The notes beneath the pieces are model-generated. The model saw only the letters and a list, made by a program, of their open reading frames with translations, was not told the DNA's origin and ran no database searches. The position numbers and the translations under genes were made by a program. From assembly GCA_026692725.1 (NCBI GenBank), contig JAPMUG010000001.1, positions 310,001 to 374,000 of the forward strand: a DNA stretch of 64,000 bases, read 5' to 3'. Source of the DNA: Ecytonucleospora hepatopenaei (taxonomy: Eukaryota > Microsporidia > Enterocytozoonidae). This document shows, in pieces, positions 5,492 to 55,236 of this stretch. Position 1 is the stretch's first letter. Each line of letters begins with the position of its first letter.

Positions 5492-6268
5492 ATGCTGTAT
5501 ATTAAATTTATAAAGGCATTTTACATCAACAACACAGAACAAGAAAGATTTTTAGGTGTTAACAAACACAATTCATTTACTGCAACTCCCACCTCTACAC
5601 CTGTTGATTTTGAGCTTAAGCATTTCAAGTCATCAGATTGTACACATTCTCTGGGTGTTGCAAATACAAAAAATGTTATGGACATAAGAGGAAGTGCGCA
5701 CAATGGTGATCTTATACTATATAGATATCATGGAAATTCAAACCAGCGTTTTAATATTTTTTATACACCAAATAACAAGTATATGCTGCATCAAAGAGGT
5801 AGATGCATATATTATGACATGCAAAAGGAAAAGTTTTATTTGACCAACTGTATAAACACGTATGGATCTCTTTTTAAGTTTTATTTTGCAGTGCGTACAA
5901 GAGAAAGCCAGCACAGCTGTTTACCAAATGTTACTGTACATTCTTTCCTAAATAAATACATAAAAATACTCAGAAAAAATAAAAAAGAGGAAAGCACGAG
6001 CTCAAGTTCTAAGAAAAACACAAATTATGAAAGTTCATCAAGCAGTTCATGTGAAGATTCTATCAAAAGGCGTAGAAAATACAAAAAAAGACAAAATAAA
6101 GATTTTTATGGCAGTAGAAATCTCATTACACACAATTTTAAACAAAATAATTGTGGTCATCAAGCTATAAGCAGTGATTGTGATGGATATGATAGACTTT
6201 CTACTTGCTCCTCTGAGACAGAAACAGAAGCATTTTTAAATAGACCTTTATCTATGTATCTTAGGTAA
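5492..6268 (+). CDS. Ricin-B-lectin-like (beta-trefoil) protein with Ser-rich basic tail
   Basis: The N-terminal half (about residues 20-140) has beta-trefoil signatures of the ricin B lectin family. These are a MDIRGSAHNGDLILYRYHG block followed by NQRFNI, the usual Q-x-F/W repeat end, and a later RCIYYD...TNC repeat. The C-terminal 100 residues form a low-complexity tail rich in serine and in basic KRRRKYKKRQ-type clusters, with an SSETETEA acidic patch. Ricin-B-lectin-like proteins in Microsporidia have been linked to spore or polar-tube structures and host-cell adhesion; that link is from the family, not from this sequence. No convincing signal peptide is present. The frame extends upstream to TTG 5450, but ATG 5492 is the first Met codon. 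There is no CCC block before it. Confidence 0.75.
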   Translation: MLYIKFIKAFYINNTEQERFLGVNKHNSFTATPTSTPVDFELKHFKSSDCTHSLGVANTKNVMDIRGSAHNGDLILYRYHGNSNQRFNIFYTPNNKYMLHQRGRCIYYDMQKEKFYLTNCINTYGSLFKFYFAVRTRESQHSCLPNVTVHSFLNKYIKILRKNKKEESTSSSSKKNTNYESSSSSSCEDSIKRRRKYKKRQNKDFYGSRNLITHNFKQNNCGHQAISSDCDGYDRLSTCSSETETEAFLNRPLSMYLR

Positions 6269-15477: not shown

Positions 15478-16719
15478 ATGTCAAACAAAAATATTGCTGA
15501 AGAAAATGAATTGATAAAAATTTCACAGCTAAACCGTAATCATTACACGGATACAATTTTACAGCTTGAAAATGAAATAAACAAACTTCAAGACAACATT
15601 AATTTGAAACTAGGCACCAAAGAAGTTGAAACAGGATTGGCTCCTCCATATTTATGGAATTTAACAAAGGATAAACTTTCGATTACAAATTCTCCTCCTC
15701 TTCAAGTTGCTAAGGTTGTAAAAACACTGTCAGTAAATTCTGGAGAATACACATATATGATTTCTATCAAGCAGATGGCAAAATTTGTAGTTGGCAAAAG
15801 TAGATATCTTGAACATGCAGAAGTATATGACGGTATGCGAGTGGGTGTTGATCGATTGAAGTATGCACTTACACTACCCCTGCCTAGAAAAATTGATGCT
15901 TCTGTGACATTAATGCAGGTTGAAGATAAGCCTGAAGTGACTTACGATGATATTGGTGGATGTAAAGAAGAAATTGAAAAAGTCAAAGAAGTTGTTGAAG
16001 ATCCCATGCTAAACCCAGAAAAATTTATAAACCTCGGAATCGACCCTCCAAAAGGAATTTTATTGTACGGTCCACCAGGTACCGGAAAAACCTTATTGGC
16101 ACGAGCAGTAGCCAATCGTACAAATGCGTGTTTTATTAGAGTGATAGGCTCAGAATTAATCCAGAAATATGTAGGAGAAGGTGCGAGAATGGTCAGGGAA
16201 ATATTTAAACTGGCAAGGAGTAAAAAGGCGTGCATAATATTTTTTGACGAAGTGGATTCATTTGGATCAACTCGTTTTGGTGATTCGGATAACAATGAGG
16301 TGCAGAGAACAATGCTTGAATTAATAAATCAATTGGATGGGTTTGATTCCCGTGGTAACGTAAAAGTTATTATGGCAACAAACAGACCGGACATCCTTGA
16401 CCCGGCACTTTTACGACCAGGAAGATTAGATAGAAAAATTGAATTTAAAGTGCCTGATTTAGAAGGAAGAACTAAAATACTGAAAATAAATTCAAAATCA
16501 ATGAGCGTGGCCAAAGAAATACGATATGAATTGATTGCACGCATGTGTAATGGGGCAACAGGTGCTGAATTAAGAGCTGTTGCAATTGAAGCAGGAATGT
16601 TTGCCATTCGCGAAAGAAGAAAAATTGCAACGGAGGCTGATTTTATAAAAGCAGTTGATAAAGTTATCAAGCAAGGAAGTAGATTTTCATCTACACCAAA
16701 ATATTTGACTTATAATTAA
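15478..16719 (+). CDS. RPT1: 26S proteasome regulatory ATPase RPT1
   Basis: RPT1 is one of six AAA ATPases in the 19S base ring that unfold ubiquitinated proteins into the 20S core. Among the RPT paralogues the closest match is RPT1, from the TGLAPPYLW block near residue 52 and the [17 protein letters not shown] block near 120. Walker A GPPGTGKT is at about 198-205, Walker B IIFFDEVD at about 253-260, and the arginine-finger block RPGRLDRK at about 315. The protein ends in TYN, like other RPT1 proteins. After Walker B it has DSFGST where most RPT1 proteins have DAIGGA. Start: ATG after ATACCCTTAAGA. Confidence 0.96.
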
Positions 16720-17587: not shown

Positions 17588-18082
17588 TTATTTGAGTGAA
17601 ACATGTAAATTTTCCTCTAAAGCTCCTTCTTCACTTTCTATGATAGAGTGTTCTGCTGCATTCCATTTTACAATTTTTAATTTTTCTTTGTTCCCACTTG
17701 GATTTTCGATTGCTTCAGCCGTATAGCCTTCTGCATCACCATCATATTCACCTAATATCATCTTCATCGTTCCTTGTTGTAGTATTTGTGATTTATCAAC
17801 ATTTAATATTTCAAGGCGTGAATTTAAACTATCTTTAAGTAAGCAACTCATAAAAACATTTAAGTTGTTGCTACGGCACAAGAAAAGTCCATTCTTAGAT
17901 TTAAATTTCTTATCCCCAAATTCAAATTGGCAATTTGTTTTGATTTCAGCAGGATCTTCTATTTGCATAAAAACTGCTTTTGATTTTGTTAGACATAGTT
18001 TTTTAGATGGTTCACTTGCCACTTGAATTGTATAATAAAAAGAACACAAAACTGCAGATATTTTGGTTATAAGAAAATTCAT
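17588..18082 (-). CDS. Secreted beta-trefoil-like family protein A
   Basis: The first 20 residues are hydrophobic with a plausible signal-peptidase site (QVASE). Residues 25-90 contain two cysteine pairs in the pattern C-L-x...C-x-F and F-L-C-x(9)-MSC, like the other secreted proteins between 17.6 and 24.2 kb. The ricin-type second repeat is eroded, with no KCL...QxF. The C-terminal 50 residues are acidic and low in complexity. The coding strand has TATATAAATTTG about 25 bases before the ATG and no CCC block. Function unknown; secretion is inferred from the N-terminus. Confidence 0.7.
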   Translation of the reverse strand: MNFLITKISAVLCSFYYTIQVASEPSKKLCLTKSKAVFMQIEDPAEIKTNCQFEFGDKKFKSKNGLFLCRSNNLNVFMSCLLKDSLNSRLEILNVDKSQILQQGTMKMILGEYDGDAEGYTAEAIENPSGNKEKLKIVKWNAAEHSIIESEEGALEENLHVSLK

Positions 18083-18153
18083 GGATAAAACAATACGCCA
18101 AATTTATATATGTTTTAAAAAAATGTTTCAAATTTTTAAAAGAAAAATTTTAT

Positions 18154-18741
18154 TTATGCTGCAGAAGCTGCCTTTTCAAGTTGTGCGTTTTCTCCTCCAT
18201 TTCCTTCTTTTGCATCTTTTTTAACATATCCGTTGCTTAAATGAGGGCTGTCCTTTGAAGATTGTAATCCTGAGATTTTTGGTGATTCTTCTTTTACAAT
18301 TACATCGAGATAGTGTATTTCAAATTGTGTTTCAAAATCAGAAGTGTTGCATTCAACTATTTGAAGTTTTTTGTTTATTTCTGGTGCAAAATCGTATCCT
18401 AAACACTTTCCTGTTTTTTTATTGATTATTTGTGCCTTTTTGCTTGGCTTGTCCACTATTTGCCAGTGAATATTTTCAACCGCATATTTACATAACTCTA
18501 AGGTTTTTTCTGTTTCTAAATTTGTGCAGAAATACATTTTGCCTGCCCATATCATGCTGTTTTTTTCTTTTGAGAAGTTAGACAAAAGTTCCTGGATTTT
18601 TATTGTTTTTTCATCAGCAAAAAATAAACTTGCATTATCAGAAACTAATTTAAGTTGATTGTTGTGTATGTTACGTAATTCAAAAGGTCGAGATGCATTT
18701 TGTGCCGTGACCAATCCCAATAAGGTTTGTAAAATGTACAT
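18154..18741 (-). CDS. Secreted beta-trefoil-like family protein B (ricin-B-like)
   Basis: A short signal peptide (LLGLVTAQNA) is followed by a beta-rich region of about 130 residues. Its second repeat has the ricin-B form TGKCLGYDFAP, then VECN, then TQFEIH. An earlier FCTNLETEKTLELC pair forms the first repeat. The C-terminal 45 residues are polar and low in complexity, ending in AASAA. A TATA-like AATATAAAATAG precedes the gene and there is no CCC block. It is tandem with its two neighbours on the same strand, so local duplication is likely although the sequences are now very different. Confidence 0.72.
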   Translation of the reverse strand: MYILQTLLGLVTAQNASRPFELRNIHNNQLKLVSDNASLFFADEKTIKIQELLSNFSKEKNSMIWAGKMYFCTNLETEKTLELCKYAVENIHWQIVDKPSKKAQIINKKTGKCLGYDFAPEINKKLQIVECNTSDFETQFEIHYLDVIVKEESPKISGLQSSKDSPHLSNGYVKKDAKEGNGGENAQLEKAASAA

Positions 18742-18828
18742 ATTGTTTTCAAAACATAAACTATTTTATATTATTTGAAACAAAGTTTTGAATTGTTTAC
18801 ATTAAGAAATTAATTAAAATTTTTAATT

Positions 18829-19416
18829 TTATTCTTGTTTATTTGCAGCAGTTTCAAAGAATAAGTTGAAATCAACCTGTGTTTGGTCAATTGGAATCTT
18901 TTCTTGTAATTCTGATGAGCTATTTTCTTCTAAGCTCAAAGATTCTTCTTCTTTTTTAATAATTTTATCATATTCACATTTATATTCTTTAGGAGATAAC
19001 ATTATAAAAACTTGCTTTTTTTTCTCACTTCCAGATTTGCAATTTTCAAAAACCATGTTTTGTGTATCCTTTTGAACTGTAAGACAGAGTCCTACATTAT
19101 TTTTTATGACGATTCCGTTTTTAACATTTTTAATTCTTTTAAATGTTATGTTTTTTGTTGGTAATGGACATGCTCCAATATTTTTGTTATTTAATGCACA
19201 TAAAAAAGCCCTGTCTATAACAAAAATTCCATTTTCTTTTTTTATCAAAATATTTAAATTGTTTTTTTCTATTTCTTCTATGTTTTTTAAAGAAACCTGA
19301 TATTTATCGTAACTCATATACAGAGAATTGTCACAAAAAAACCTTAATATACATTTTTGTGACAAAACTGATGCCTTTATAATACATAAATTATAAAATA
19401 ACATTAAAATAAACAT
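18829..19416 (-). CDS. Secreted beta-trefoil-like family protein C (ricin-B-like)
   Basis: A signal peptide of about 17 hydrophobic residues precedes a cysteine-bearing domain. The first repeat is FLCALNNKNIGAC. The second repeat is GLCLTVQKDTQNMVFENC, followed by KQVFIM. This is the same C...C, [GN]-x-C-L, C, Q-x-F layout as proteins B and E. The tail is acidic (KEEESLSLEENSSSEL). There is no transmembrane segment, so it is probably released or attached to the spore wall or polar tube. It is the third of three head-to-tail family genes. Confidence 0.72.
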   Translation of the reverse strand: MFILMLFYNLCIIKASVLSQKCILRFFCDNSLYMSYDKYQVSLKNIEEIEKNNLNILIKKENGIFVIDRAFLCALNNKNIGACPLPTKNITFKRIKNVKNGIVIKNNVGLCLTVQKDTQNMVFENCKSGSEKKKQVFIMLSPKEYKCEYDKIIKKEEESLSLEENSSSELQEKIPIDQTQVDFNLFFETAANKQE

Positions 19417-19571
19417 TAAAATTTCTTAAATTATGTTTAGTTGTAAAAAAAGTTTAAAAATTATGAAACAAAACATTTAAAAACAAATACAAATTATTTT
19501 AGACTTAAATAAAAGCAGCTATAGTCTTTCACATCATAAAACATTTAAATTAAATATAATTAAAAAATCAA

Positions 19572-20810
19572 TTATTTATCACAAAATACAATAAACATTT
19601 CTATAAATACAAAGAACAAAAAGACACAGTCAAAAAAACCACCGTATTCATTTTTATACACTTCAATCAAACATTTTCTTTTAAATAGAAAGCATTCATA
19701 TGTTTTTAGTGTGTTTTCTGCTATTTTACACCACTGATAATTATCTAACAATAAAACATGGTTTTCCATCTTGATGTTGATCATTTCATAAACACTCTTA
19801 AGCCGTCTAACTATATCTTCACTATTTGGCTCGCAAAAAATAATTTTATCTTTATGTTCTATTTCACTAATTCCTCCTACATTTGTTGTTACTACATGTA
19901 AACCACTTACCAATGCTTCTAATACTATCATACAAAAACTTTCAGTTAGTGAAGTATTTAACAAAACATGAGAATTGCGCATAATTTCACCAATTTTTTT
20001 AGGTGACTGAAATGGAAATAATTCGACCTGATTCCAGAGTCTGTATTTGTCTATAATAAACATTAAATCATCCTTTTTACTACCGTCCCCAACAATTGTA
20101 ATTTTGACTTCAAAATTTTTACAGATCAAAGGAATTGCCTCAACAAGAATATCAATGCCTTTTCGAAACTCTAATCTCGTAACAACGCATATTTTAAACA
20201 CTTTCTTTGCACTAAAATTATTTTGTTGTTTGTTAGCATAAAAACATAAAGAATTTACACCATTTGGTATTACGCATATCCGTTTACTATCAATAAAAGG
20301 CATTCTTTTAAGCAAATTGTTTTTACATACGTTAGAAACAGCTATTATTTTGTTAATATTTAGCAAAGTGTATTTTATCACAGTATCTGCAGCAAATCTC
20401 TCTAACTTATAATTGTCATAAATTGAATGTTCTGTTAAAACTGTTGTGATTCCAAGTATTTGCGCATGAAATAATGCTTCCAATGCCATTGGAGAGTGTG
20501 TCTGGTGCCCGTGCACTACATTGATGTTATTCTCATAAAAAATATTTTTATATAAAAAATATCCTGCAAACAAAGCTGGCCATGCAACATTTTTGCTTAA
20601 AATGGGAAATTTGACGTAGTATGTTTTGACTCCATGAACTAAAGAAATGCTACTGCTTGAATTTTTTGTCTTTGGGTAGCAATGCGTTATAACAATGCAT
20701 TTGTGTCCTTTTTGCTGCATGGATATGGCCAAGTTAAGTACATGGTTTTCTACACCACCTGTTCCTGGTATAAACATGTCCGTAACAAAAGCTATGTTTT
20801 GTTTGTTCAT
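19572..20810 (-). CDS. PIGA: GPI-anchor GlcNAc-transferase catalytic subunit PIG-A
   Basis: PIG-A (Gpi3) transfers GlcNAc from UDP-GlcNAc to phosphatidylinositol on the cytosolic face of the ER, the first step of GPI-anchor synthesis. The glycosyltransferase-4 fold is evident. The N-terminus has FIPGTGGVENHVLNL, then HGHQTHSPMALEALFHA and TVLTEHSIYDN, all typical of PIG-A. The GT-B donor site has ESFCMIVLEALVSG (an E-x7-E motif). A hydrophobic segment near residues 390-408 is the C-terminal membrane anchor. Start: ATG directly after ATTACCC. Confidence 0.95.
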   Translation of the reverse strand: MNKQNIAFVTDMFIPGTGGVENHVLNLAISMQQKGHKCIVITHCYPKTKNSSSSISLVHGVKTYYVKFPILSKNVAWPALFAGYFLYKNIFYENNINVVHGHQTHSPMALEALFHAQILGITTVLTEHSIYDNYKLERFAADTVIKYTLLNINKIIAVSNVCKNNLLKRMPFIDSKRICVIPNGVNSLCFYANKQQNNFSAKKVFKICVVTRLEFRKGIDILVEAIPLICKNFEVKITIVGDGSKKDDLMFIIDKYRLWNQVELFPFQSPKKIGEIMRNSHVLLNTSLTESFCMIVLEALVSGLHVVTTNVGGISEIEHKDKIIFCEPNSEDIVRRLKSVYEMINIKMENHVLLLDNYQWCKIAENTLKTYECFLFKRKCLIEVYKNEYGGFFDCVFLFFVFIEMFIVFCDK

Positions 20811-20943
20811 GGGTAATCTATATAAAAGAGTTTAATTTTTATATTTTTAATTTTTAGTGACATTAAAAGATCATTAAATAATTACAAATAGCATTTAATT
20901 TATTTTAAAGACATGCAAATACTTTTTAAAAAATTTTACCCCA

Positions 20944-21495
20944 ATGGTTAAATTTCCTGAAAGAGATCCTACTAAAGACTATCTTGTTGTTAGAGTTACT
21001 GGTGGTGAACAACCAGGACCAATTTTTTCACAAAAAGCTGGTCAAATGAAGTTACCGGGAAAGGTGGTTGGAGAAGACATTAAAAAGCTTACGGTAAAAG
21101 AATACAAATTACAAAAAATTCACGTTGAACTGGCTGTTAAGGACAGAAAGGCAGAATTGAAGCTGGTCCCAACAACATCACAGTTGATTGTTAAGGAATT
21201 AAAAGAAACAAGACAACCTAAAAAGAAGGGGGGTGAAAAAATAGATCAAATACACGACGGTTCTTTGTCTTTTAAAGGCCTGTGCAATGTTGTAGATATT
21301 GTGCATGAGGACAGATCTAGATCTAACACTCCTAAGGGAACAATGAAACAAGTGCTTGGAACTGCGTTGGCAGTAGGCTGTTCTGTGGAAGGCCATAATC
21401 CTAAAGATGTGATAAAAGCTATAAATGGGGGAAGAAGTGAAATAGCAACTCTTTTGAATCTTAAAGAAGCTGCTTTACCTGAATATTTAAATTAA
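20944..21495 (+). CDS. RPL12: Ribosomal protein uL11 (L12 in yeast naming)
   Basis: uL11 forms the base of the GTPase stalk of the large subunit and binds the LSU rRNA GTPase centre. Diagnostic features are the GGEQPGP N-terminal turn, KLVPTTSQLIVKELKE ending the N-terminal domain, and SLSFKGLCNVV with GTMKQVLGTALAVGCSVEGH in the C-terminal RNA-binding domain. At 183 residues it is slightly longer than the usual 165, with a C-terminal extension. Start: ATG directly after TTACCCCA. Confidence 0.94.
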   Translation: MVKFPERDPTKDYLVVRVTGGEQPGPIFSQKAGQMKLPGKVVGEDIKKLTVKEYKLQKIHVELAVKDRKAELKLVPTTSQLIVKELKETRQPKKKGGEKIDQIHDGSLSFKGLCNVVDIVHEDRSRSNTPKGTMKQVLGTALAVGCSVEGHNPKDVIKAINGGRSEIATLLNLKEAALPEYLN

Positions 21496-21558
21496 TTTTT
21501 TTGTTTTTTTATATCGTTTCATGTTTTTAAAAAATTGTTTTAGATTTTTAAGATAGAA

Positions 21559-22269
21559 ATGAAATATATTGAAATTGTACTTTTTTATTTTAGTATTTCA
21601 GTTAAGTGTGGGAAACGTTTTGAAAACAATCGTGATATCTCACAAGATGTTTTGGCGGGTGTTCTAGACAACACAAATCGCAACTTTTGTGTGTTTGGAC
21701 CTATCCGTAAAAATGTATCCCAAAATACATTTTCTTTTGGTTCTAAACTATGTATCGATGCAAATCAAAGAATTTACACTTGTGAGGATGGGTTGGAGTT
21801 GGATTTTAAAAAAATATGGAACTGCGATAATTTTGTTATTCAAGAACAAATTTCAGGTAAATGTTTACAAAAAGAAAATGACATGTATTTTTTAGGCAGT
21901 TGCAACACTTGCTTAAACAAATCGTTTTTTAATTTAACAGACAGGTGTTTAAAACCATCGCTAAAGGATACAATTGGAACTCTTTTATGTGATGATATAG
22001 CAGAAGCTACAAGAAAAAATATTACAAAAAAACAAAAGTCACCATTGTGTAAATTAATGAAAATACAAAAACAGCTCAATGAAGAGGTAGAAGATATTGT
22101 TCAACCACTGGGTCTCAGAAAAATGATAGACAGAATTGAAAAAAGAGGAAAATATTACGACCGCATGGTAGAAGGACCAAAATATGAAACAAGAGATTTA
22201 ACAGCCTGCCGTGACATAGCATACAAGCGCAGAAAGGCGCAGGCAAGAAGAATGAATAGATCAAGGTAA
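21559..22269 (+). CDS. Secreted beta-trefoil-like family protein D with basic C-terminus
   Basis: A signal peptide (IVLFYFSISVKCG) precedes a cysteine-rich domain to about residue 145. Cysteine pairs include KLCIDANQRIYTCEDG, then the ricin-like SGKCLQKENDMYFLGSCN. The C-terminal 70 residues are helical and end in a strongly basic stretch (YKRRKAQARRMNRSR). It is the only member of the local family with such an arginine-rich end, which could act as a nuclear-targeting or nucleic-acid-binding patch; that is inference. Its start is a normal ATG 63 bases after the uL11 stop. Confidence 0.68.
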   Translation: MKYIEIVLFYFSISVKCGKRFENNRDISQDVLAGVLDNTNRNFCVFGPIRKNVSQNTFSFGSKLCIDANQRIYTCEDGLELDFKKIWNCDNFVIQEQISGKCLQKENDMYFLGSCNTCLNKSFFNLTDRCLKPSLKDTIGTLLCDDIAEATRKNITKKQKSPLCKLMKIQKQLNEEVEDIVQPLGLRKMIDRIEKRGKYYDRMVEGPKYETRDLTACRDIAYKRRKAQARRMNRSR

Positions 22270-22278
22270 ATTTAAATT

Positions 22279-23442
22279 TTATTTGTTTTTTGTGTATATT
22301 TCACGTATCAAAAATGTCATTACGCCTATAATTCCCACAAACATGACAATATATTGCAAATAAGAGTGACTTTCTAACTGCCTTTCCTTTACATTTTCCA
22401 AATGGTGCTCAAATTCCATAATTGCTCTTTTTAACTGCATCATCTTAATGCTCATATCGTTTATTTTTTTATTAACACCATAACTGCTTTTTGATATTTT
22501 TGATTCATTTAATTTGTTTATTTTTGTCTTTAACTTTGAAATATCCTTGTTAAACTCATTTTTAGCCAAAACAAAGACGGTGTCCGGTAACTCCCCTATG
22601 TTTCTTTTTATTAAAAACTGTACCAACTCCATTTTATGTATCAATTCTTTAACATCGTTATCTCCATGCTTTATTTCTGCAGCTCCACGTATATATTCTT
22701 CGATTTTTGGTGTTTTTGAATGGTACATGTTGTATCCATTTACCTCGTCTCTTTCGTAAAACTTTGCTTCTTTCAATACAAATGCTTTGGAAGATGCTGT
22801 GTTCTTATAATCTGCTATTATTCCAAAATATTTTCCCGGTTTATTTGCTTCAAATGCCTGATTAAATCTAAAATAATCATACAGAAGTGTTTTGCCATCA
22901 TATAACTCAATTTTCATGTTCATTGAAGTTGCAATTACTTTCATCGTTATTTCTTTAAGGTTTCTGAATCTTTTTGGATTCAAAGAGTCTCTTTTTGTCA
23001 ATATATCTCCCATTTCCTTCAGATCTTCGGACCCGTCATTTTTTATGAATATCAAATCTGCTACGCCGCCCTTCATTTCAAATCCGAACACAAATCCGTC
23101 AAACTTGCTTGGACCTCCATAAAATGGGCCTGTTGTTAGTTTTTCTGAGGTGTAATAAATGTAAAATCCTGCAACTTCACGAGAGCCTAATTTTGGCAAT
23201 TCAAACGTAGTGCTAAATGACCAGTTTTCGACTTTATTGATGTTTTCCCATCTTACCAGTGAACTAGCTGCTATGCTTGAGCGAAGAAACAATTTATCTT
23301 TTTTAACCTTGGTATTATACAGTCCTATATTCTCGTTAAACACATGTGGTGCATATGAAAATGAGTCATTTATTTTTTCTACAACACCTTCTCCTTGTGA
23401 TTTAATTGCAAGGGCATTGTTAAAGTAAAGTCCAAAATTCAT
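22279..23442 (-). CDS. L-type lectin cargo receptor (ERGIC-53/VIP36/Emp47 family)
   Basis: These receptors bind high-mannose glycoproteins and carry them from ER to Golgi. Residues 65-225 match the L-type lectin domain: WSFSTTFELPKLGSREVAGF, the GPFYGGPSKFDGFVFGFE metal/sugar region, and the closing KYFGIIADYKN strand. A helical stalk of about 110 residues follows (lysine-rich heptads, 265-350). Then comes a transmembrane segment at about 358-378 and a short cytosolic tail ending TKNK. The lumenal orientation normally needs a signal peptide, but the N-terminus is only weakly hydrophobic and an in-frame TAA closes the frame just upstream. Confidence 0.85.
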   Translation of the reverse strand: MNFGLYFNNALAIKSQGEGVVEKINDSFSYAPHVFNENIGLYNTKVKKDKLFLRSSIAASSLVRWENINKVENWSFSTTFELPKLGSREVAGFYIYYTSEKLTTGPFYGGPSKFDGFVFGFEMKGGVADLIFIKNDGSEDLKEMGDILTKRDSLNPKRFRNLKEITMKVIATSMNMKIELYDGKTLLYDYFRFNQAFEANKPGKYFGIIADYKNTASSKAFVLKEAKFYERDEVNGYNMYHSKTPKIEEYIRGAAEIKHGDNDVKELIHKMELVQFLIKRNIGELPDTVFVLAKNEFNKDISKLKTKINKLNESKISKSSYGVNKKINDMSIKMMQLKRAIMEFEHHLENVKERQLESHSYLQYIVMFVGIIGVMTFLIREIYTKNK

Positions 23443-23557
23443 TATTGTATTTGTTTTTATTAATTAAATAGCACATGTGAAACAAAAATAAACATTACAT
23501 ATGTTCTGATAAACAATGTAAAACACCGTATATTTAAACTCAAACAACAAAAACAAC

Positions 23558-24238
23558 ATGGTTTACACACTATTAGCATTTTTTACAAATGTTTATGCAA
23601 GGACTTTGATAGTTCCTATAACACTTAAAACGCACAGACTAACACTTAATGACGCATCGGGTGCTCCCATTTTAATCAATAGTGCATTACATGATGATAC
23701 GGTAAATAGTGACAAAATACGCATTCCTTCGGACTTTGCATTTTTATCCGACACAAACCATTCTGTATGTTACAACTTGGAAAATGACTCTCTTTCCGTC
23801 TGCAAAAATGAAGGAGAAAGACAGCCATGGCATTTACTGGACGAGGTTAGAAATGTTCGTTTTTCAACAAGCGACAACAAATGTTTGACCGTAGGAGAAA
23901 GAGACGATGCAACAGACAATTATTCTTTGAATTTACTGCCATGTGATATGAAAAATAAAGAACAGGTGTTTATTTTGAACAAAAACCATGGCATGATAAA
24001 AGACGCAAAAAGCATGAAAGAATTAAGAAAGAAAATGGTTGAAATCGATGTAGAAGAAAAAGATGGTTATAAACCAAGAAAACTTGAAGGAGATGGTAAC
24101 TATGATAAAGATAACAACGTAGAAACAGCCGTACAGGACATGCTAAATAGAAGACAAAACTCAGGCAACCCACATAACGACCAAACCAAACCATACAAAC
24201 TTACACAGAGCGATACTTCTGGACACATTCCACAATAA
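23558..24238 (+). CDS. Secreted beta-trefoil-like family protein E (ricin-B-like)
   Basis: The signal peptide MVYTLLAFFTNVYA is followed by a beta-rich domain to about residue 145. The cysteine layout is VCYNLENDSLSVC, then NKCLTVGERDD, then LLPCDMKNKEQVFIL. This matches proteins B and C closely in spacing, including the final Q-V-F. The C-terminal 80 residues are polar and charged with no membrane anchor. A TATA-like GTATATTTAAACT lies about 25 bases before the ATG, without a CCC block. Confidence 0.74.
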   Translation: MVYTLLAFFTNVYARTLIVPITLKTHRLTLNDASGAPILINSALHDDTVNSDKIRIPSDFAFLSDTNHSVCYNLENDSLSVCKNEGERQPWHLLDEVRNVRFSTSDNKCLTVGERDDATDNYSLNLLPCDMKNKEQVFILNKNHGMIKDAKSMKELRKKMVEIDVEEKDGYKPRKLEGDGNYDKDNNVETAVQDMLNRRQNSGNPHNDQTKPYKLTQSDTSGHIPQ

Positions 24239-39188: not shown

Positions 39189-39440
39189 ACACACAAGGGT
39201 AAAATATAATTATAAAAATTCACTATAAATATATGATAACATTTAATTATGCTTTAAAAAATATAAAATAAAAAACAAGACTAAATAAAATACTAATTAT
39301 TTAATATAATTTTATCTACACTGCACTAAAAATAAAAATATTATTATTAACTACATACAATAAGTATTAAATAAATTTATCAATAATATTAAAATAAAAA
39401 TAGTATAAATTATAAATATAAATAACATAAAATGAAAGAA
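39189..39440. other. AT-rich spacer between protein gene and LSU rRNA 3' end
   Basis: These are about 250 bases of simple A/T sequence. It holds the upstream region of the 39188 gene and the LSU 3' flank. I see no RNA or ORF. Confidence 0.5.
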
Positions 39441-39704
39441 TAAGCACCAAAAGGTTGAGGAAGCAGGCAACCTGAAGCACTCGCAAAAAGCTCATGCCGT
39501 ACAGTTCCTGTCCCCGTGTGAGTCGTCTTCACACAATCGCGTTGTCAAGTACTTATTCCAGCTTAGAGGCTTTCAGCTGTTACAAGAAGGACGTAGCTGT
39601 GCCCCGCACCTTAACAGATGAAGGCATTACCAGTGGTCCTGATCGGTACTTCCTCTCGTACTGTTCTGACCTGCTCTTCAACGCACTGCAGTAGGGTAAA
39701 ACTA

Positions 39705-39742
<38 letters not shown>

Positions 39743-39846
39743 TATTAATTGGTGAACAATCATACACTTGGTGATTGATGCTTCACCATGCTCGGAAGAG
39801 CCGACATCGAAGAATCAAAAAGCGGCGTCGCTATGAACGCTCGGCC

Positions 39847-39879
<33 letters not shown>

Positions 39880-40159
39880 CGTCACCTCCGCTCCTAGACG
39901 TGTGTAGCGGAGGATCTCTAGGCCGCTGTTTCCAGTACCTGCCGTTCACACGGCAGGCTAAAGCAAGCTTTTGCCCTTATGCTCCACGAGTGGTTTCCAT
40001 CCCCTCTGAGCTCACCTTTGGACGTCTGCGTTATTGTTTAGCAGTCGTGCCGCCCCAGCCAAACTCCCCATCAAGTCTTGTAAGCACCTCCATTACGGAT
40101 GTCAGTGGTCTCACACATTTCCCCACCTCGCTACGACAAACAAATAGAGATCTGCACTT

Positions 40160-40197
<38 letters not shown>

Positions 40198-40296
40198 GCA
40201 TGTCCCAAGCCCGTTCCCTTGGCTGTTGGTTCGCAAAGCAGTAAGTAGGGACAGTGGGAATCTCGTTGCTCCATTCATGCGCGTCGCTAATTAGAC

Positions 40297-40340
<44 letters not shown>

Positions 40341-42107
40341 TGTTTACAAGTGCGTACTTAAAATTACTTCCTTAACGTCCCAAGCACTGAGCAGAATTCA
40401 CTTTGCATCTACACAAAGCTATGTTTTTATTAAACAGTCAGATTCCCCTTGTAAGCCCAGTTCTAGCGTGCTAGAGCCAATAATTATCCCGAGGTTTTTC
40501 ATCCATTTTGCCGATTTCCCTTACTTACTTTTTTCTTATACTTTGGGCTCCTAACCCTGAAGTCCTGATGCGGTTCGGTACGACAACTGCCCTGCCTTTT
40601 TATCATCCCCCTTCGACTCCTTCTCAATATGACTTTCCAGAGCCTCCATACCTTGAGCAAATTTACACTCCTTCATATATAGCTATCATAAATAAATACA
40701 ATAACTACATACTGTATACGGCGGATTCGTGCTTAGTGTCGCCACTTCGGGCAGCTTCGAATTAATATTTAAATTCTTCCCTTTTACTTGCCTATTCATC
40801 TATCTATATTGCTACAAATAAACTAACTTGCGACAATAGGATCGTATCACTTCCTTCTATTCAAAGGACAAACCCGTCTTCTTAAGTACATTTTAATGAT
40901 GCTACTACCTCCAAGATCTGCTCTGAATGCACCTCCAGACGCGTCCACACACGCCCTTCTCTAGTACAATCATGCCAGCCTACTAAACTTCGCTTCAAGA
41001 GCATCATGACACAGGTCAGCGCCATCCATTTTAAGTAGTCCTAAATTCGATGGGTACGTTGTAACACGTTTCTTAGCGGATGCCAACCTCCATGGCCACC
41101 GCCCCACTGTCTTAATTTAGATACCACTTTTATGGGCTCTTTGTCCTGTCTTTGGCCATTTATCTCTTTGCTAGGTTCATCCCTTTTTGCGCCCCATGCT
41201 TACCACAGAGAGCCCACTAGTGCTCTATAGACTTTTGGCTTGGATCACTCTCAAACCAAACGACACATTCGGAGTTTGTTGACTAAGTCCACATCCTCTC
41301 TACTGCATCTTCCTACCTTTCTACACTTATACAATAATTACAAACAATAAATTATCTATAACATTATACATAGACTTGAGCACCGCTGTCCTGAGAGACA
41401 TTTCGGCTGGAACCAGCTACCAGGTAGTTCGATTGGTCTTTCGCCCCTATGCCCATCTTTTGTCAATGAGTTGAACATCAATACGACTTAGATCCTCCAT
41501 CAGAATTTATCCTGACTTCAATCAAAACAGACATAGTTCACTACCTTTCGGGTCTTATGAATGCAACTCCTAAACTTCTCTCGGCTTCTGTTTTCCATAC
41601 ATTCACCTCGCTGCACTCAAAATCTCCTTGGTCCGTGTTTCAATACGGGTCCGAGTCTCTCGGCTTACCCCCTGGTACTTTCACTATTTCACTTTCTATA
41701 TGAAACTTTTTCATCTTTCGCTCGCGCTACTTCTTTGCTATCGGTGTCTAACTATATTTAGCCTTGGAAGTTACTACCTCCCCTTCACACTGCACTACCA
41801 AACAGCACTACTCTCTAAATCTCCTGCCGCCCGGGGACTATCACCCCTTCTTGTCCTGCTTTCCTACAGGTCTTCGCGACTCTCATTACAACAAACACTT
41901 GCGTGCTTTTATCATCTGAGCTTCTTCATGTTCATTCGCCACTACTTATGAAATCCTAGTTAGTTTCTTTTCCTCCTCTTAATGATATGCTTAAGTTCAG
42001 AGGGTCTTCGTGAAATCTCTCTCACTATTGGAAACGTCTTCTGACTTTTCGTACTCTTCTACGTTCGTCATCGCTGCTAGACCCTAGCGATCCCGTACCA
42101 GGGATTC
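39440..42107 (-). rRNA. Large-subunit rRNA with fused 5.8S-like 5' end
   Basis: Universal LSU blocks are present on the minus strand. The sarcin-ricin loop reads AGTACGAGAGGAAGTACCGA at about 39643-39662. The peptidyl-transferase segment near 39695-39720 reads GACCGTCGCGAGACAGG. The 5' end carries a 5.8S-like block near 42060-42095 (GGATCGCTAGG...GATGAACGT-like). It runs straight into GAACTTAAGCATATCATTAAG, so 5.8S is fused as in other Microsporidia. AT-rich expansion segments lie near 40660-40850 and 41310-41370. Both ends are approximate (within 20-40 bases). ORFs here are spurious. Confidence 0.95.
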
Positions 42108-42542: not shown

Positions 42543-43846
42543 TAATGATCCCACAGCAGGTTCTCCTACGGTGACCTTGTTACGACTTGTACTTTATCTA
42601 ACTACAGGTATTCAGAGCCTAAGCTCTTCATCCCTATAATCATCTGAAATAGTGACGGGCGGTGTGTACAAAGAACAGGGACACATTCACAATGCCTTGA
42701 TGAGACACTGTTACTAGGAATTCCTCATTCATAGCTTATTTACAAAAGCTAATCCTACTCATCTCAAATTGCTTTGTCTTCTCAAGAGATATTGTATTGC
42801 GCTTGCTGCCCAGGATATCTAAGGGCATCACGGACCTGTTATTGCCTTCTCCCTCCTGTGCCTAAATAACACCTGTCTAGAAGATCTCACTGGTTCCAGC
42901 ACTTAAGCTAAAAGTCGCCCCATCAATTTCCAACGGCCATGCACCACTCTTGTCTACCTCATGTCTCCAATCTACGATAGACTTGACCCTGGTAAGTTTT
43001 CCCGCGTTGAGTTAAATTAAGCAGCACAATCCACTCCTGGTAGTGTCCTTCCGTCAATTTCGCTTTAAGTTTCACCCTTGCGAGCGTACTATCCCCAGAG
43101 CCCGAAAACTAAGATTTCTCCCACACCAAGCATCGCTCTCGCAACACCCAGCATTGTCGGCATAGTTTACTGCTAGAACTACAGCGGTGTCTAATCACTT
43201 TCGATACTCTAGCCTTCGTCCTTGATCCCCAGATACGTCTAAGAGCATCGCTTTCGCCTCCGTTGGTCCAGGTGGGGTCTTGAGATTTCATTCTTTGCCC
43301 ACCTATACCATGCTCCCTATCCGTTCCGCTACTCTCAACAAACTCAATGGCTTTTAACACCACCTTTTAATTGCATCTACGACTACGGACCCTTTAACTG
43401 CAGCATCCACCATAGACACTCTTGGAGTTGGAATTACCGCGGCTGCTGGCACCAAAACTTGCCCTCCAATTGCTTCACGTCAAGGTTTTTACACTCGACC
43501 CTTCTACTCACGTTTCATAACTGTCTCCTCTCAAAAGAGTGGACAATTTTCGCGCCTGCTGCCATCCTTGGACGTGGGAGCCATCTCTCAGGCTCCCTCT
43601 CCGGAATCAAACCCTGATTTCCCGTTACCCATCACTGCCTTGGTAGTCCTTTACACTACCAACAAACTAATAGGATTGCACCTTATTCTACACTCTTAGC
43701 CACAGGTTACCGTGGTTATTCTTCCCGCATAGAGCAAATCAGCGCAACATTACTGAGCCGTTCGTCGTTCCCTCGTCTGAGTTCACATAACATGCATGGC
43801 TTAATCTTAGAAACTAGCATCTACGTCAGGCAGAATCAACCTGATG
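42543..43846 (-). rRNA. Small-subunit rRNA (16S-sized)
   Basis: The 5' end near 43846 reads TCAGGTTGATTCTGCCTGAC, the microsporidian SSU start. The 530 loop GTGCCAGCAGCCGCGGTAAT is at about 43430-43451, and the TGTACACACCGCCCGTC block lies near 42654-42670. The 3' end reads GGATCATTA at about 42543-42551. The length of about 1.3 kb is bacterial-sized, as is usual in Microsporidia. Confidence 0.96.
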
Positions 43847-49027: not shown

Positions 49028-49780
49028 TTATAAATCAATAGGATTTAGACCCATTTCCTTAAGCACCTCATTAACCTTAATTAGGGTATCTTCTGGACCA
49101 TTTACAGATATTCCCTTTGTTTTTGGATGGGTGTAAATTTCATAATCATTTCCTCCCTTATGGGTCATGTCTCCAAAAAACACTATTTTTTCTTCCTTGA
49201 TATGTCTCAGACAGTATGTTTTATCCCATCCTTTTGGAAACACATCTATTGAAATTTGACCACCTATTGAACAAACCACATCCATTTGACCGCAGAATTC
49301 CCTGACTTCTTCCACTATATTTTCTCTAACTTTGTGTTTTTTGTCATACTCATTAAACGCAATTCTCTCTTCTTGTGTGCAACTTCTACCAACAGGTGAC
49401 ACATTTACCATCGACCTTCTTGTTTCAATAAATGTTCCTCTTTTTACAGGACATTCTGTTTTGGAAAGTATGCATAAAAAACGATTTATAAGTTTTTTAA
49501 AATTTTCCTCTCCTAAAAATGTAATAAAAGATTCTTCACTAACTAACTTTTCATCTTTGTAGTATCGAACACCATTTTCAGGAAATCCATATGTAAATAT
49601 TTGTAATAAATCATCTCCAATTTGTTCCTTTTGCTTAGGCAGGTCAGAACCACCGACAAATGCTATGTTGACTTGCTTTTTTAACTCTTTAAGCATTTTT
49701 AAAATTTTGTCAGGTGCTACGCATCTGCTTTTTGTCAAGGTACCGTCGACGTCAAATAAAAACAATGTGTTGTTTTCCAT
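49028..49780 (-). CDS. SEC53: Phosphomannomutase (eukaryotic PMM/SEC53 type)
   Basis: The enzyme interconverts mannose-6-phosphate and mannose-1-phosphate, feeding GDP-mannose for N-glycans and GPI anchors. HAD-fold motifs are the phosphate-accepting FDVDGTLT near residue 10, then FVGGSDL, then KRGTFIETRRSMVNVSPVGR for substrate binding. The family block GGQISIDVFPKGWDKTYCL is followed by FFGDMTHKGGNDYEI. The 250-residue length is standard. The frame extends upstream, but ATG 49780 lies directly after TTACCCAT. It works upstream of PIG-A and the L-type lectin pathway in this same window. Confidence 0.95.
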   Translation of the reverse strand: MENNTLFLFDVDGTLTKSRCVAPDKILKMLKELKKQVNIAFVGGSDLPKQKEQIGDDLLQIFTYGFPENGVRYYKDEKLVSEESFITFLGEENFKKLINRFLCILSKTECPVKRGTFIETRRSMVNVSPVGRSCTQEERIAFNEYDKKHKVRENIVEEVREFCGQMDVVCSIGGQISIDVFPKGWDKTYCLRHIKEEKIVFFGDMTHKGGNDYEIYTHPKTKGISVNGPEDTLIKVNEVLKEMGLNPIDL

Positions 49781-50081
49781 ATGGGTAATAAACGAAAAAA
49801 CAAACATTATTGAAATATTGCATAAATTATAAACAAACAAATATATAGGCATTCTTTAAATAAATTTTATTTAATAAATTTGTATTTAAAGATAACAAAT
49901 GATTATATATAAACACATAAATTTTTTTATTACTAAATTGTGTAAAGAATATTCAAAAAATTCAATCATATTTTCTTTAATAAAAAAACTTTAAGAAAAT
50001 AAAAAAATAAGAAAGGTTTTTAGTCCGTTTTTGATTTAATTTGCACAAAATCAACAGTTTTATAATGTTTTATAGCATATA
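49781..50081. other. AT-rich intergenic region upstream of phosphomannomutase
   Basis: This holds the upstream region of the minus-strand phosphomannomutase gene and simple A/T sequence. There is no further gene. Confidence 0.5.
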
Positions 50082-50243
50082 ATGGTGTTGAAGTTATTTG
50101 TTTTGATTGTAATAATATTCAATTTGTTTACTGTTGTTTGTTTTTTACTAATTTCAATAATATTAAAAGATTATTATAAACATGAAAAAAAACTTTTATT
50201 TAAAAAAGAGAAAAAAAATTCTGAGAAAGGAAAACCTTACTAA
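50082..50243 (+). CDS. Putative 53-residue single-pass membrane microprotein
   Basis: The frame (ATG at 50082, TAA at 50241-50243) encodes a hydrophobic stretch of about 27 residues, VLKLFVLIVIIFNLFTVVCF and on. A short lysine-rich tail follows (KKLLFKKEKK). This is the layout of small tail- or signal-anchored proteins. It is too short to trust alone and has no CCC block, but a hydrophobic-then-basic pattern of this quality is uncommon in random A/T sequence. I do not recognise it. Confidence 0.4.
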   Translation: MVLKLFVLIVIIFNLFTVVCFLLISIILKDYYKHEKKLLFKKEKKNSEKGKPY

Positions 50244-50640
50244 TGCATGACATGAGGGTGGTTTAACCGGCACCATGGCCTACCAAATTCCTTTCACAGC
50301 GCGCGCAACCCAACCATCCTCCCTATTCCAACAGAAAAGCGACTACACGAAAACCCATTCATCCCCCCTAATTCAACAGAAAAGCGACTACACGAAAACC
50401 CATCCATCCCCCCTAAATATACTCCGACCAACCTCTAACACCCATTACAGAAAAACCAACCTCATGTCACGCTTCATAATAAAAACCGATCTCGCAAAAA
50501 AGGCGAGGGTCAACACAGTGCTTTATACAAGACGCGTACTTGCATAGAGATATAGAAGACCCTACACATACCAGGCGTATTACTGAATTGCCTCCTGGAT
50601 TTCGGGGACCTGTGGCAATTGGGGACCATTGTTTATGCAT
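50244..50640. other. GC-richer island with 45-bp tandem repeat
   Basis: The region is clearly richer in G and C than all surrounding DNA. Two 42-base blocks differing at one base (50329-50370 and 50374-50415) repeat with a 45-base period. Downstream, AATTGCC at 50586-50592 can pair with GGCAATT at 50614-50620. A 90-codon plus-strand frame (50275-50547) spans the repeat, but its composition looks like a by-product. It could be a structured RNA, a mobile-element end or a minisatellite. Confidence 0.45.
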
Positions 50641-51049
50641 GAATTTTTTTGTTTATATGTTTGTGACAAACAAAATTAAATTTTGTTTGCCTTTTTTAAA
50701 AAATTTTACTTAATTAGGTGATATAAAAAGATGACTAAATATTGTACAATATTCAATAACAATCATTTTTAAAAAATTTTAATTTTTGTTTATTTTGTTG
50801 TTATTTTATGCAATATAAACAAAAACAATTTTGTATTAAACATTAGCGTTGTAATAAAATTTAATACAAAAACCATAAACAATAGTGTTATACAAGATGT
50901 AAGTTCATAAAATATATAAAAAGCCACCTTATATTAAATTAATGTTAAATTTTTATACTTTTTTCATATTGAATAAAAATATGCAAATTTACATTACCTT
51001 GTATAAAAACAGACTAAATTTAAATGCTTTAATTCTAAATTATATGCAG

Positions 51050-51230
51050 CCTTTGACCGAAGCACTTCGGCATTAGTGTATTTTGTATATATTGATGTGA
51101 GTTTATATATGGTGATCCCAAGACGGGATGAAAGCCGCAGGTTGTTTTTGTAATTTGTAAAAAAAGTGGTCTTAGTCGCATAGTGTGTTTTTTTAATTTC
51201 ATAATAGCTTGGTTAATTGCATTTAAATAT
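51050..51230 (+). repeat. Repeat A copy 1
   Basis: This unit of about 180 bases contains TTGACCGAAGCACTTCGG, GATGTGAGTTT...TATGGTGATCC, GAAAGCCGCAGGTTG and GTCGCATAGTG. A second copy is at 55709-55875, and an inverted one at 53993-54122. The minus strand is open for 84 codons through this copy, with no recognisable product. Confidence 0.75.
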
Positions 51231-51284
51231 AAGGTTAAACATGTATTTATATGTCTTGTTATTTTATGAATAAATTTGTATATA

Positions 51285-51480
51285 TACAACTAAAAATTTA
51301 TTTACTACTTCTAATAATTAATTATTTCACCGCACGCTGGACACTTTTTCCTCACCTGATTTCTCATTAAACCAGCCGTGCTTGTAAATGGGCCCTTGCC
51401 CTACCCTACCAAAACCTACCAGCTTTGCCTCCCGTCTCCTTCGGACTCTTCTGGGGGCCTTGGCTTTGGTCTTTAAAACT
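51285..51480 (+). repeat. Repeat B copy 1
   Basis: The unit of about 190 bases starts near AAAAATTTATTTACTACTTCTA. It contains CTGGACACTTT, CAGCCGTGCTTGTA, CCTACCAAAACCT and CCTTCGGACTCTTCTGG. It lies 55 bases after repeat A copy 1. It is the most GC-rich of three copies and probably the least decayed. Confidence 0.75.
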
Positions 51481-53992
51481 CAATCCAGGATTTCTATACT
51501 TGGGGTTTGTTAAATCGGAACCCCACCGGGTTTGTCGCCTGAGAATGACATATTTTTATTAATTATACTTTTTTAAAAAATTTTATAATAAAAAAAGATG
51601 ATTTTTTATAATAGAAAATGACTTAGATTTAAACATTTTATTTAAAAAAATTTTATGACGTTGAACAAGAGCAAAAATTTTGTACAAAAGTTCATTAGTA
51701 TTATTAAAATTTTTAAATCAATTTTTATCTTTATTTTTTATTAAAAATTAATAATTTTACAATATTTTCATATAAATTTTTTAATTCTTGTTAAAAATAA
51801 TGATAAAAAACATTTTTTTACAATGCATAAAATTTTTAAACGTATGCTTTAAATAATTAAAACAAAAATATAGTAGGTTTTTTGTACAAACAATAGTCTT
51901 TATATATAACTCAAAAATTGATTTATTTGTACTTATTTAAAATAGAAAAATATAAATAAAAATATTTTTAAAAAGATGAGTTAAAAACATTGTTTAAAAA
52001 AGAGACAGCATTTTTCAAAAAATTTGTGCTCACTGAAATATAATTTTTTTAATTAAAAAAAAGTTAAAAAAAGATAAAGAATTAAAAATTTTGCACTAGA
52101 TCCAATTTTATAAAAAGTTTTTGTTACAGATAGATAAATTATCTGAATAGAATGCCATATTTAAATAACTTATTAAAAAAGACTATTTGTTATAAAAAAT
52201 AAAAAAAAATAATGACGAAGATGGGTTTATTTAATACCTGTTTTTTAAGCTACAAAAATTAAATAAATTTTACAAAGATATTAAATATTAACATTATGTT
52301 AAAAACGCTTATAGTTCAATAAGTATGCTAAAAGCTAAAAATACACAATATTAAATTTATGAGCCTGTTATTTGTAAATTTTGTCAGGGTGTGACCGTTT
52401 TATGTTTAAAAATTATAAAAAAACAAAAAAACGCACAAAAAAATTTTCGTTTAAAAAACGACAATATTACTTTATAAAAAACCAAATAAAGCTTTTAAAG
52501 TAAAAAACTTACTTCAGTTTGTACATTTTGAAATACACAAACAGATAAAAAATATAACTAAAATACCACAAAGTTGTGTAAATTTTTTTTTTATATTTTT
52601 TCCCTGTTATCATTTAAAATATTTTTTAAAAGTTCAATGTTCTAATATTTTATAATGTTTTAATATTCCAATATTTTTATTTTGTAATATTATAAACTTA
52701 TAAACTTATATAAAAACTTGGGGAAAAAATTCTTTTTTGTAAAATTTCTTTTTAAAACATGTTTTAAAAATTAAATATTTAAATAAAAACCAAATGTTAC
52801 AAAATTTATTAAAATTGATATATTTTGCATTGTAAATAAAAAACAAAAAAACTTATAAGCTTTAAAAAAAATTAAATTTTTAAAAAGTTTTAGTATGTAA
52901 CTAAAAAATTAAGATAATTACAAAATCAATCTACCAACTAAAAAACAAAAAAGACTCAATTATTATAAAAAAACATTTAAAAACTAAACTAACCAAAAAT
53001 TTTATAAAAAAACTAATTATTATGTATTATAAAAAAAATTTTAAGTTTTTTTCATATACAATTTATTTTTGTAATAAAAAATTAAATATATAAATTATAA
53101 TAAAATGTAAATTTTATTTTTTAAAACGTGTTTTTACTTTTATTTAAAATTAGTTTTAAAAAATTTTTTACTTTTTGCCAAAATTTTGCTAATTAAAAAA
53201 AACAAGTAGAGTTTAAAAAAATAAAAAACAAATTAAATTGTGTATTAAAAAATTTTAAAAATAATTTATTATAAACGTTTTAAATCTTTTTCAAAGTTTA
53301 AATAATTACTAATTGTTTTTTAAAATGTAAGATTTTTAAAAAGTATGCGTAAAAACATCTTAGATTAGTCTCTTTGCACATTTTTTTAAATTTTTTATTT
53401 TTTATTTTCTTATTAATCTTTTCTTCTATTTTTACTATCAGTTATCTTTTTTATTTTATAAAATTTTTTATATATTTTTACTTCATAAAAAAATAATTAT
53501 ATTTGTAGACAAGTTATTTTTTTAACTTCTAAAAAATAATTTTTTTACTTTTTTTTAAAAAATATTTAACTGCATTTTGTATTATTTTATCAAAATGCTT
53601 TCTTCTTAACAAGACGTACTTGTATATCAAGGGCTTTTCTTTACTATATCAAAACCTGAACTGTTTTGTTTAATTGTTTTCTTTAAATTCTAATGCGGTT
53701 TAATTAATTCTGAACAAATTATATTTCTTAAACAAATATTAGTTTAATTTGTTAAAATTTTTTTCTTTAAAATACAAATTGCTACAATTTTTTTAAAAAA
53801 GTCAATCTATACACTTATAAAACTTTTAATAATTACATAAAAACAATGTTTTTCAAATTTGATTTAAAAAGTAATCAAATACTAAAGTGTTAAATTTTTA
53901 AAAAATAAAATTCAAATCTTCAATATATATCAACAAAATTATTCATTATTAATTTACTCACAAAAAGTTTATTAAAAACAACGTTCATACTT

Positions 53993-54122
53993 ATGCAATA
54001 AACAAGCCTTTCTGATAAAAAAATTATGAAAACCTGCAACTTTTATTCCGCCTTGGGATCACCATACACAAACACACACTATTTTATAAAATACAATATT
54101 GTCAAATTGTTTTAGTCAAAAG
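53993..54122 (-). repeat. Repeat A copy 3 (inverted, shortened)
   Basis: Read on the minus strand it matches GTTTGTGTATGGTGATCC of copy 2, a GTTGCAGGTTTT block and a GGCTTGTTTATTGCATA block. The TCGCATAGTGCG part is missing. Confidence 0.6.
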
Positions 54123-54983
54123 CTTTAAATTTCATGCCGTGGTTAAGAAATGTTTAATAAATGATGTGTATTAAAACAAACACTTCTTAAGATTACCTGT
54201 TAAAGAGGTTTTTAGTAATATGTCTCACAACTTTCCTTTTGTATCCCACCTCTTTAAAAAAATTTACTCCATTGCAAAAATTCAATTTTTCAGCTAGCAA
54301 TAAACTGCCAGTAAACATTTAAAAACAAAAATCTAATTGGATTCTATCTTATCATCAAAAAATTCTTTATAATTCCTACTATAAACTATTTATTTCTTTT
54401 GATTGTCTTATACTAAAGTTTGCACATGTTTATAAAAATTTTTATTAAGGCGGAAAAATTAGATTTGATCTTTTTTACAAAATTTTAAAAGTAGTTAGCT
54501 ATTAGTTATTTTTAATGTTTTATAAAGATTTGTAGTTAATAAAATAGTATCAAAATTTAATCAAAAATTTTTATAAGTTTAAATAAAATTTATGTTTTAA
54601 CATTTGTATTTATTAAATCTAAACAAATATGAAAACTTGTTAGTATTAAAAAAATTTTAAAATAAAATGAGTATGAGTAAGCTTGCAACTATTAACAAAA
54701 TTTTTTACAAAATATAAACAACTAATTTTTTAAAAAATTGAATCTTATTTTAAGAAAAATTTTTTAAAGCAGTATTGTATGTTTGACTTTTTTTAGTAAG
54801 AATTTTATTTTGTTATTATTGTATTAAATTTAAAAATATTTCTAAAAGTGCATATTGTTTTTAAAGTTTAACTGCAGAAACAATATAATTTTAAATGTTT
54901 TGCACAAACTAAAAATTTTTATATAGCGAAAAATTAAAATAACAAGTTTTTATATTGCTTAAAAAAACGCATTTGCATTTCGA

Positions 54984-55113: not shown

Positions 55114-55236
55114 ATAAATATAAAATACCTGATATGCAAAAAAAAGACTATAAAAGTTATTTTTCAATATATACAAAAAACGTAAAAAAATATCCGAGTT
55201 AAAAAAATCTTAAAAGAATCTAATCTAGTTAAGTAA

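Follow-up and report, generated by a model that had tools for sequence, protein, structure and literature searches.

Do five small open reading frames (ORFs), which lie within 6.7 kb of a microsporidian genome, encode one family of secreted beta-trefoil proteins? The question concerns a stretch of 64,000 nucleotides of Ecytonucleospora hepatopenaei (formerly Enterocytozoon hepatopenaei), hereafter the window: positions 310,001-374,000 on the forward strand of JAPMUG010000001.1 (assembly GCA_026692725.1), located on contig C5 of the genome searched here (3.09 Mb, 13 contigs). Both qPCR primers published for the PTP2 gene of Enterocytozoon hepatopenaei (PMC8874471) match that genome exactly, pointing towards one another across 238 bp of contig C9, as expected for this species or a close strain. 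ORFs A (17588-18082), B (18154-18741) and C (18829-19416) are located on the minus strand, D (21559-22269) and E (23558-24238) on the plus strand. As the original prediction had it, all five are open, start with ATG and encode 164, 195, 195, 236 and 226 residues, respectively. A sixth relative had been proposed outside the cluster, namely ORF F (5492-6268, plus strand, 258 residues).

We estimate at about 0.67 the probability that the cluster encodes secreted proteins of the microsporidian ricin-B-lectin-like (RBL) family: disulphide-stabilised trefoils with variable charged tails, which would sit on the polar tube or the wall of the spore and bind glycans of the host or of mannosylated parasite proteins. 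On sequence grounds B and E are taken as members, C and D as probable members and A as undecided, while F and one gene on contig C7 appear to be further members elsewhere.

Signal-like starts and ricin-B-type similarity

All five cluster ORFs begin with a hydrophobic, signal-like segment, in agreement with what had been predicted. On the Kyte-Doolittle scale (9-residue window, a value of 1.9 or more in the first 21 residues; a hydropathy measure, not SignalP) such a start is found in 5/5 of A-E against 4/36 of the other ORFs in the window (Fisher P 1.7e-4), with the note that the threshold was chosen after the values were known and that A scores 1.91. The comparison set consists of 41 non-nested ORFs of at least 100 residues, that is, A-E and 36 others. 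For F the hydrophobic start is weaker (1.31).

Four of the five proteins also share a cysteine pattern. The arrangement C-x8-12-C-x18-32-C[LI]-x12-22-C is shared by B, C, D and E; it occurs in 2/36 of the other window ORFs (P 7e-4) and in 80 out of 8200 ORFs after shuffling, the pattern having been fixed after the proteins had been read. The motif [GN]-x-C-L following the cysteine pair, as described originally, is found in each of these four. The ending Q-[VT]-F had been claimed for three proteins but holds for two, C (G-L-C-L...C...Q-V-F) and E, since the corresponding residues of B are E-T-Q-F and D lacks a Q there. ORF E has exactly four cysteines (71, 82, 109, 129) and carries both Q-P-W and Q-V-F; B has four as well (72, 84, 113, 131), C has seven and D twelve. 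Counted as Q-x-W/F, there are two sites in E, one in C, one in F (Q-R-F; isoelectric point, pI, 9.5) and none in A, B and D. ORF A retains one cysteine pair of family spacing (69, 80). It had been called eroded: the second pair is indeed absent, and A fails the family tests given below.

The clearest member is ORF E, for which Ricin_B_lectin (PF00652) is the first Pfam match at an E-value of 3.9e-6, with 27.5 bits against a cut-off of 29. The same model comes first for F (6.5e-4), followed by RicinB_lectin_2 (0.013), both below their cut-offs; F thus stands up as a ricin-B-like relative. For B three of the four matches are CDtoxinA (0.0024; a model that we take to be a beta-trefoil), Ricin_B_lectin (0.036) and RicinB_lectin_2 (0.038), all below the curated cut-offs. 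These matches support a ricin-B-like beta-trefoil for E and B, as predicted from sequence, and support F as a putative family relative outside the cluster. A search of NCBIfam gave no match above cut-off.

Searching the whole genome with PF00652 returned ORF E and one further gene on contig C7 (L003:1369-1980; C7:252856-253464, minus strand). Its product of 203 residues has a signal-like start and reads N-K-C-L...C...Q-V-W, and it matches PF00652 at 0.0068 in the genome search and at 0.0045 in a separate Pfam scan. The first-look filter of this search missed F and B, so that the member count is a lower bound. No genome-wide match to PF14200 was obtained, and genome searches with the proteins of E, B, the C7 gene, D and F each found the query only. 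The convergent neighbour of the C7 gene (L003:40-1305, plus strand) encodes a Ser/Lys-rich protein of 421 residues with a C-L...C...F stretch, for which we found no Pfam match and no support from the repeat profile described below.

Relatives in other genomes are few. A search of 5.8 billion proteins, in which 548 candidates were scored, gave a single relative of ORF E at an E-value of at most 10. This protein, P0002, is 45% identical and keeps all four cysteines; identity is 70/131 (53%) in the core (residues 16-146) and 30/80 (38%) in the tail. ORF D has five relatives (P0008-P0012), with 65-81% identity in the core (residues 29-145) and 19-53% in the tails. One of the five, ECANGB1_2680, belongs to Enterospora canceri, by taxonomy a member of the Enterocytozoonidae, and shows 60% identity over 77% of D. 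Given a core so well kept in all five relatives, the description of the family as fast-diverging fails for D. The search with C yielded C itself and P0005 (90% over 84% of C), and those with A and B yielded copies of themselves only; these were mixed two-protein queries, by which distant relatives may be missed. P0002 and P0009 both have 2 contigs, the longest being 61277 for each, an agreement that points to linkage of E and D in a relative as well.

Profile comparisons extend the similarity to C and D. When a profile of E and P0002 was compared with the 41 window ORFs by hhalign, E ranked first, B second and C third (A 30th, F 35th). Single comparisons to the E profile gave P values of 0.033 for B, 0.025 for C and 0.4 for A. 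We also built a held-out repeat profile from eight units of E, P0002, B, F and the C7 gene, with C, D and A excluded. Against it the D family, taken as a profile, scores 19.3 (150 column shuffles yield 14.1 at most, so that 0/150 reach the real score), and C together with P0005 scores 14.8 (2/150 column shuffles at or above). P0005, P0012 and P0011, which are relatives of C and D, reach 5.9, 5.2 and 3.5 bits, against 2.9 bits for the best background ORF. Based on the Pfam and profile results, E, B and F are members as far as sequence can tell, D and C are probably ricin-B-like and A is undecided. Of 66 stop-free segments only B, D and E fit a long regular expression derived from E and B, but we place no reliance on it because C, P0002, P0005, P0011 and P0012 escape it.

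The proteins are also faintly similar to each other. In a phmmer test, the real score was compared with 1000 shuffles of the target for 30 ordered pairs among A-F, each counted singly; in 10/30 pairs at most 50/1000 shuffles are at or above the real score. The pair of B and E is the most convincing (0/1000 and 1/1000 in the two directions): in a single comparison the two match at an E-value of 4.6e-5, which beats the top value among all 30 ordered pairs in 20/20 shuffled sets. BLASTP aligns 27 residues of E and B around the first cysteine pair (E-value 0.004, one comparison). The pairs C-B (10/1000 and 27/1000) and C-D (6/1000 and 14/1000) are weaker. When each of the six is compared with the 41 window ORFs, five (B, C, D, E and F) have another of A-F as their top match apart from themselves: for C these are B and D, for D it is C, and for F it is B, though weakly (32/1000 shuffles). 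This similarity favours common descent of B to E by duplication, either long ago or with fast change since. Of the original wording, locally duplicated, this faint similarity supports the common descent and not a time or place of the duplications.

One observation concerns the start regions. CCC is a start signal in microsporidia, and it occurs within 20 nucleotides upstream of the start in 17/35 other ORFs against 0/6 of A-F (Fisher P 0.03; for A-E alone 0/5 against 17/36, P 0.057). The secreted genes may use another start signal than the other ORFs of the window.

The known RBL family and the PTP4/PTP5 question

The RBL family has been described before, and the cluster is a new example from a shrimp-infecting microsporidian. 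PTP4, PTP5 and PTP6 are identified as RBL proteins by structure-based work, RBL genes are described as clustered, with ptp4 and ptp5 adjacent in every genome analysed there, and PTP4 and PTP6 are reported to bind host cells (PMC10759460). For Spraguea, two RBL proteins are released on germination and the RBL genes form clusters (PMC3749934). Nosema bombycis has 52 RBLs, in which QxW has become QxF and the domain goes undetected in 22/52 (PMC9224602).

Our cluster resembles this family (the NbRBLs, Vairimorpha necatrix RBL1-9, and the Spraguea and E. cuniculi clusters) in several respects: the proteins are small and secreted, similarity to PF00652 is weak, QxF replaces QxW, the genes are clustered and divergence is extreme (PMC9224602, PMC10759460, PMC3749934). 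Unlike the known clusters, it belongs to the Enterocytozoonidae, shows only faint pairwise similarity, is interrupted by genes for PIG-A, uL11 and an L-type lectin, and includes the well-conserved D family. Compared to the (QxW)3 lectins of the ricin B chain (PF00652), for which one expects three repeats, ORF E shows two stretches with cysteine pairs and Q-x-[WF]; it differs by falling below the Pfam cut-off and by a third repeat that is unrecognisable by sequence. By analogy with the published family (PMC10759460, PMC3749934, PMC9224602), the predicted role in the spore coat, polar tube or host interaction appears plausible.

A sharper form of this explanation, rather than its opposite, holds that the cluster contains genuine orthologues of both PTP4 and PTP5 (B with C, or E with D), hidden by divergence and accompanied by extra secreted trefoil paralogues, and that the loss of PTP4 reported for the Enterocytozoonida reflects a failure of detection. 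We consider this possible but doubtful. In a published account of 2026, PTP4 is totally lost in 9/9 Enterocytozoonida species according to OrthoFinder and BLAST (PMC13174016), and methods of that type could miss genes as diverged as those of the cluster. Similarly, PTP4 and PTP5 of E. bieneusi, a parasite of humans, are given as 'nd' in Table 3 of a 2020 review (PMC7040029), which is attributed there to probable high divergence or incomplete assembly. Still, PMC13174016 does assign one gene of sp. MB to PTP5 and considers earlier calls of PTP4 and PTP5 in V. corneae to be possibly misidentified. In the titles and passages covered by our own literature search, with most subscription journals outside its scope, no PTP4 or PTP5 of E. 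hepatopenaei is named. A dsRNA knock-down in infected shrimp has been reported for the EHP polar tube protein (PMC10899260).

The evidence for such an identity consists of composition, cysteine count and gene neighbourhood. EhPTP4 has four conserved cysteines and a better conserved N-terminal part, with TfR1 as candidate receptor (PMC5413088), and for Anncaliia the reported values are a pI of 6.8 with 5 cysteines for PTP4 and a pI of 8.9 with 8 cysteines for PTP5. Compared by description, the likeness lies in an RBL domain with a variable tail, four conserved cysteines (PTP4), a basic and cysteine-richer partner (PTP5) and linked genes. ORF E (pI 5.8) would be PTP4-like in its four cysteines, all kept in P0002, and in a core better conserved than the tail; yet B also has four, so that this feature is not specific to PTP4. 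ORF D would be PTP5-like in composition, being basic (pI 9.3) and rich in cysteine. B (pI 7.1) and C (pI 8.4) are in turn adjacent on the same strand, whereas E and D are parted by one gene, that of the L-type lectin. Composition is weak evidence for identity, two different pairs fit about equally well, and there are five genes here against two.

If the orthology were true, the report of a PTP4 loss throughout the clade would be mistaken, and the cluster would supply the tube-tip protein of a shrimp pathogen whose D gene has a relative in Enterospora canceri. Polar tube proteins able to bind host cells are among the RBL proteins. The cluster offers concrete candidates for testing the claimed loss. 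D, conserved in Enterospora canceri, might serve as a common marker of the Enterocytozoonidae.

Extent and fold of the family

A number of results weigh against a family that includes all five ORFs, or against the trefoil fold as such. No ricin-type Pfam match exceeds its curated cut-off in A-F, the relatives of D, P0002 or the C7 gene, and P0002 matches Ricin_B_lectin at 0.074 only. For A, C and D, Pfam offers no more than weak matches to unrelated models (in the case of C, not trefoils), and none of the six members of the D family has a ricin-type match. In hhalign, D ranks 40 out of 41 to the profile of E and P0002 (its single comparison to the E profile, P 0.085, falls on the tails and not on the core), and in the reverse scans E takes third place for both B and C, with one unrelated ORF ahead of it in either case. 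Taken as single sequences against the held-out repeat profile, C is equalled or exceeded by 53/1000 shuffles, D by 76/1000 and A by 497/1000; the best background ORF (2.9 bits) outscores C (2.7 bits), D (1.0 bits) and three of D's five relatives. The two cysteine-pair segments of the D family are unlike each other (110/150 shuffles), giving no support to an internal repeat. As a profile, A finds nothing in the held-out repeats, and its best non-self match in the window is uL11 instead of a cluster member.

Structure prediction adds little to this. AlphaFold gave a mean pLDDT (predicted local distance difference test) of 38.5 for D (alignment of 6) and 32.7 for E (alignment of 5), which means that the models are too poor to test the fold. 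Foldseek found 105 matches in PDB for the D model and 157 for the E model at an E-value of at most 10 but none at 0.001 or below (best values 2.1 for D and 0.27 for E), and a full trefoil was absent among the matches listed (50 of 105 for D and 50 of 157 for E). The D model matches a designed trefoil fragment (3ol0) at an E-value of 5.9. Because the models are poor, we regard the Foldseek result as uninformative. In these same models the cysteine pairs are found in or beside hairpins (strands 69-73/78-82 and 108-116/121-128 in E, 63-66/72-75 and 101-106/109-114 in D); this placement would agree with ricin-type repeats, but we give it little weight. Sequence searches of PDB likewise returned no significant relative (none for E, 0.056 for E with P0002, 1.2 for the D family, 0.72 for F and 0.039 for B): the matches obtained for the latter four are mostly to unrelated chains, with a fungal agglutinin (4g9m) at 0.95 for F.

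It might be argued from these results that the RBL family comprises E, B and F only, that A, C and D are secreted proteins of other descent whose cysteines agree by chance, and that D represents a separate conserved spore protein of the Enterocytozoonidae. Its Pfam result, its rank to the E profile, its 12 cysteines and its unsupported internal repeat fit such a view, as do the single sequences of C and D that do not exceed shuffles and the failure of A to match anything. Against this stand the comparisons of the D family and of C with the held-out profile, the phmmer scores of C with B and of C with D, and the [GN]-x-C-L motif and cysteine spacing that are common to B, C, D and E. We consider such a narrow family unlikely for C and D; membership of A is unsupported. 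The predicted beta-trefoil, ricin-B reading is retained for E, B and F through Pfam, carried with less weight to D and C by the held-out profile and phmmer, and not extended to A.

If the cluster indeed encodes RBL-family proteins, each would be exported through the secretory pathway and would fold into a compact beta-trefoil with hairpins closed by cysteine pairs. This domain may then be positioned on the polar tube or the wall of the spore, where it could bind glycans of the host cell or of mannosylated proteins that form the parasite's tube and wall, and the variable charged C-terminal tails might tune the binding of partners. That the trefoil was kept while sugar binding was lost, the proteins being disulphide-linked building blocks or clients of tube and wall, is improbable: Q-x-W/F sites are few and four cysteines are the feature common to B to E, but the published PTP4 and PTP6 do bind host cells (PMC10759460).

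Neighbouring genes and other features of the window

The cluster was described as split by three other genes, and both Pfam and the coordinates bear this out. PIG-A (19572-20810) and uL11 (20944-21495) are located between C and D. A gene for a 26S proteasome ATPase lies at 15478-16719. The gene for the L-type (legume-like) lectin (22279-23442, minus strand) lies between two secreted ORFs, D and E; its product matches Lectin_leg-like at 1.2e-6 with 28.5 bits, above the cut-off of 24, and has a hydrophobic segment close to the C terminus. L-type lectins of the ERGIC-53/VIP36 kind are, we assume, cargo receptors for secreted glycoproteins, and we regard this gene as a neighbour and not as a member of the cluster.

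Further downstream, the window contains ribosomal RNA genes on the minus strand: a eukaryotic large subunit (39292-42027) and a microsporidian small subunit (42543-43846). The region 49853-57420 is poor in genes, with only two ORFs of at least 80 residues wholly within it. It includes a 45-base tandem repeat (50307-50416) as well as the minimum GC fraction (0.145 at 53001-54000). On its far side, an ORF at 57421-58428 (minus strand, 335 residues) has a hydrophobic start followed by a long Lys/Glu-rich, coiled-coil-like body, and has no Pfam match above cut-off. On its near side lies a phosphomannomutase gene (49028-49852, minus strand; Pfam 1.2e-83), in which the first ATG adds a hydrophobic extension ahead of the domain; the true start may be a later in-frame ATG.

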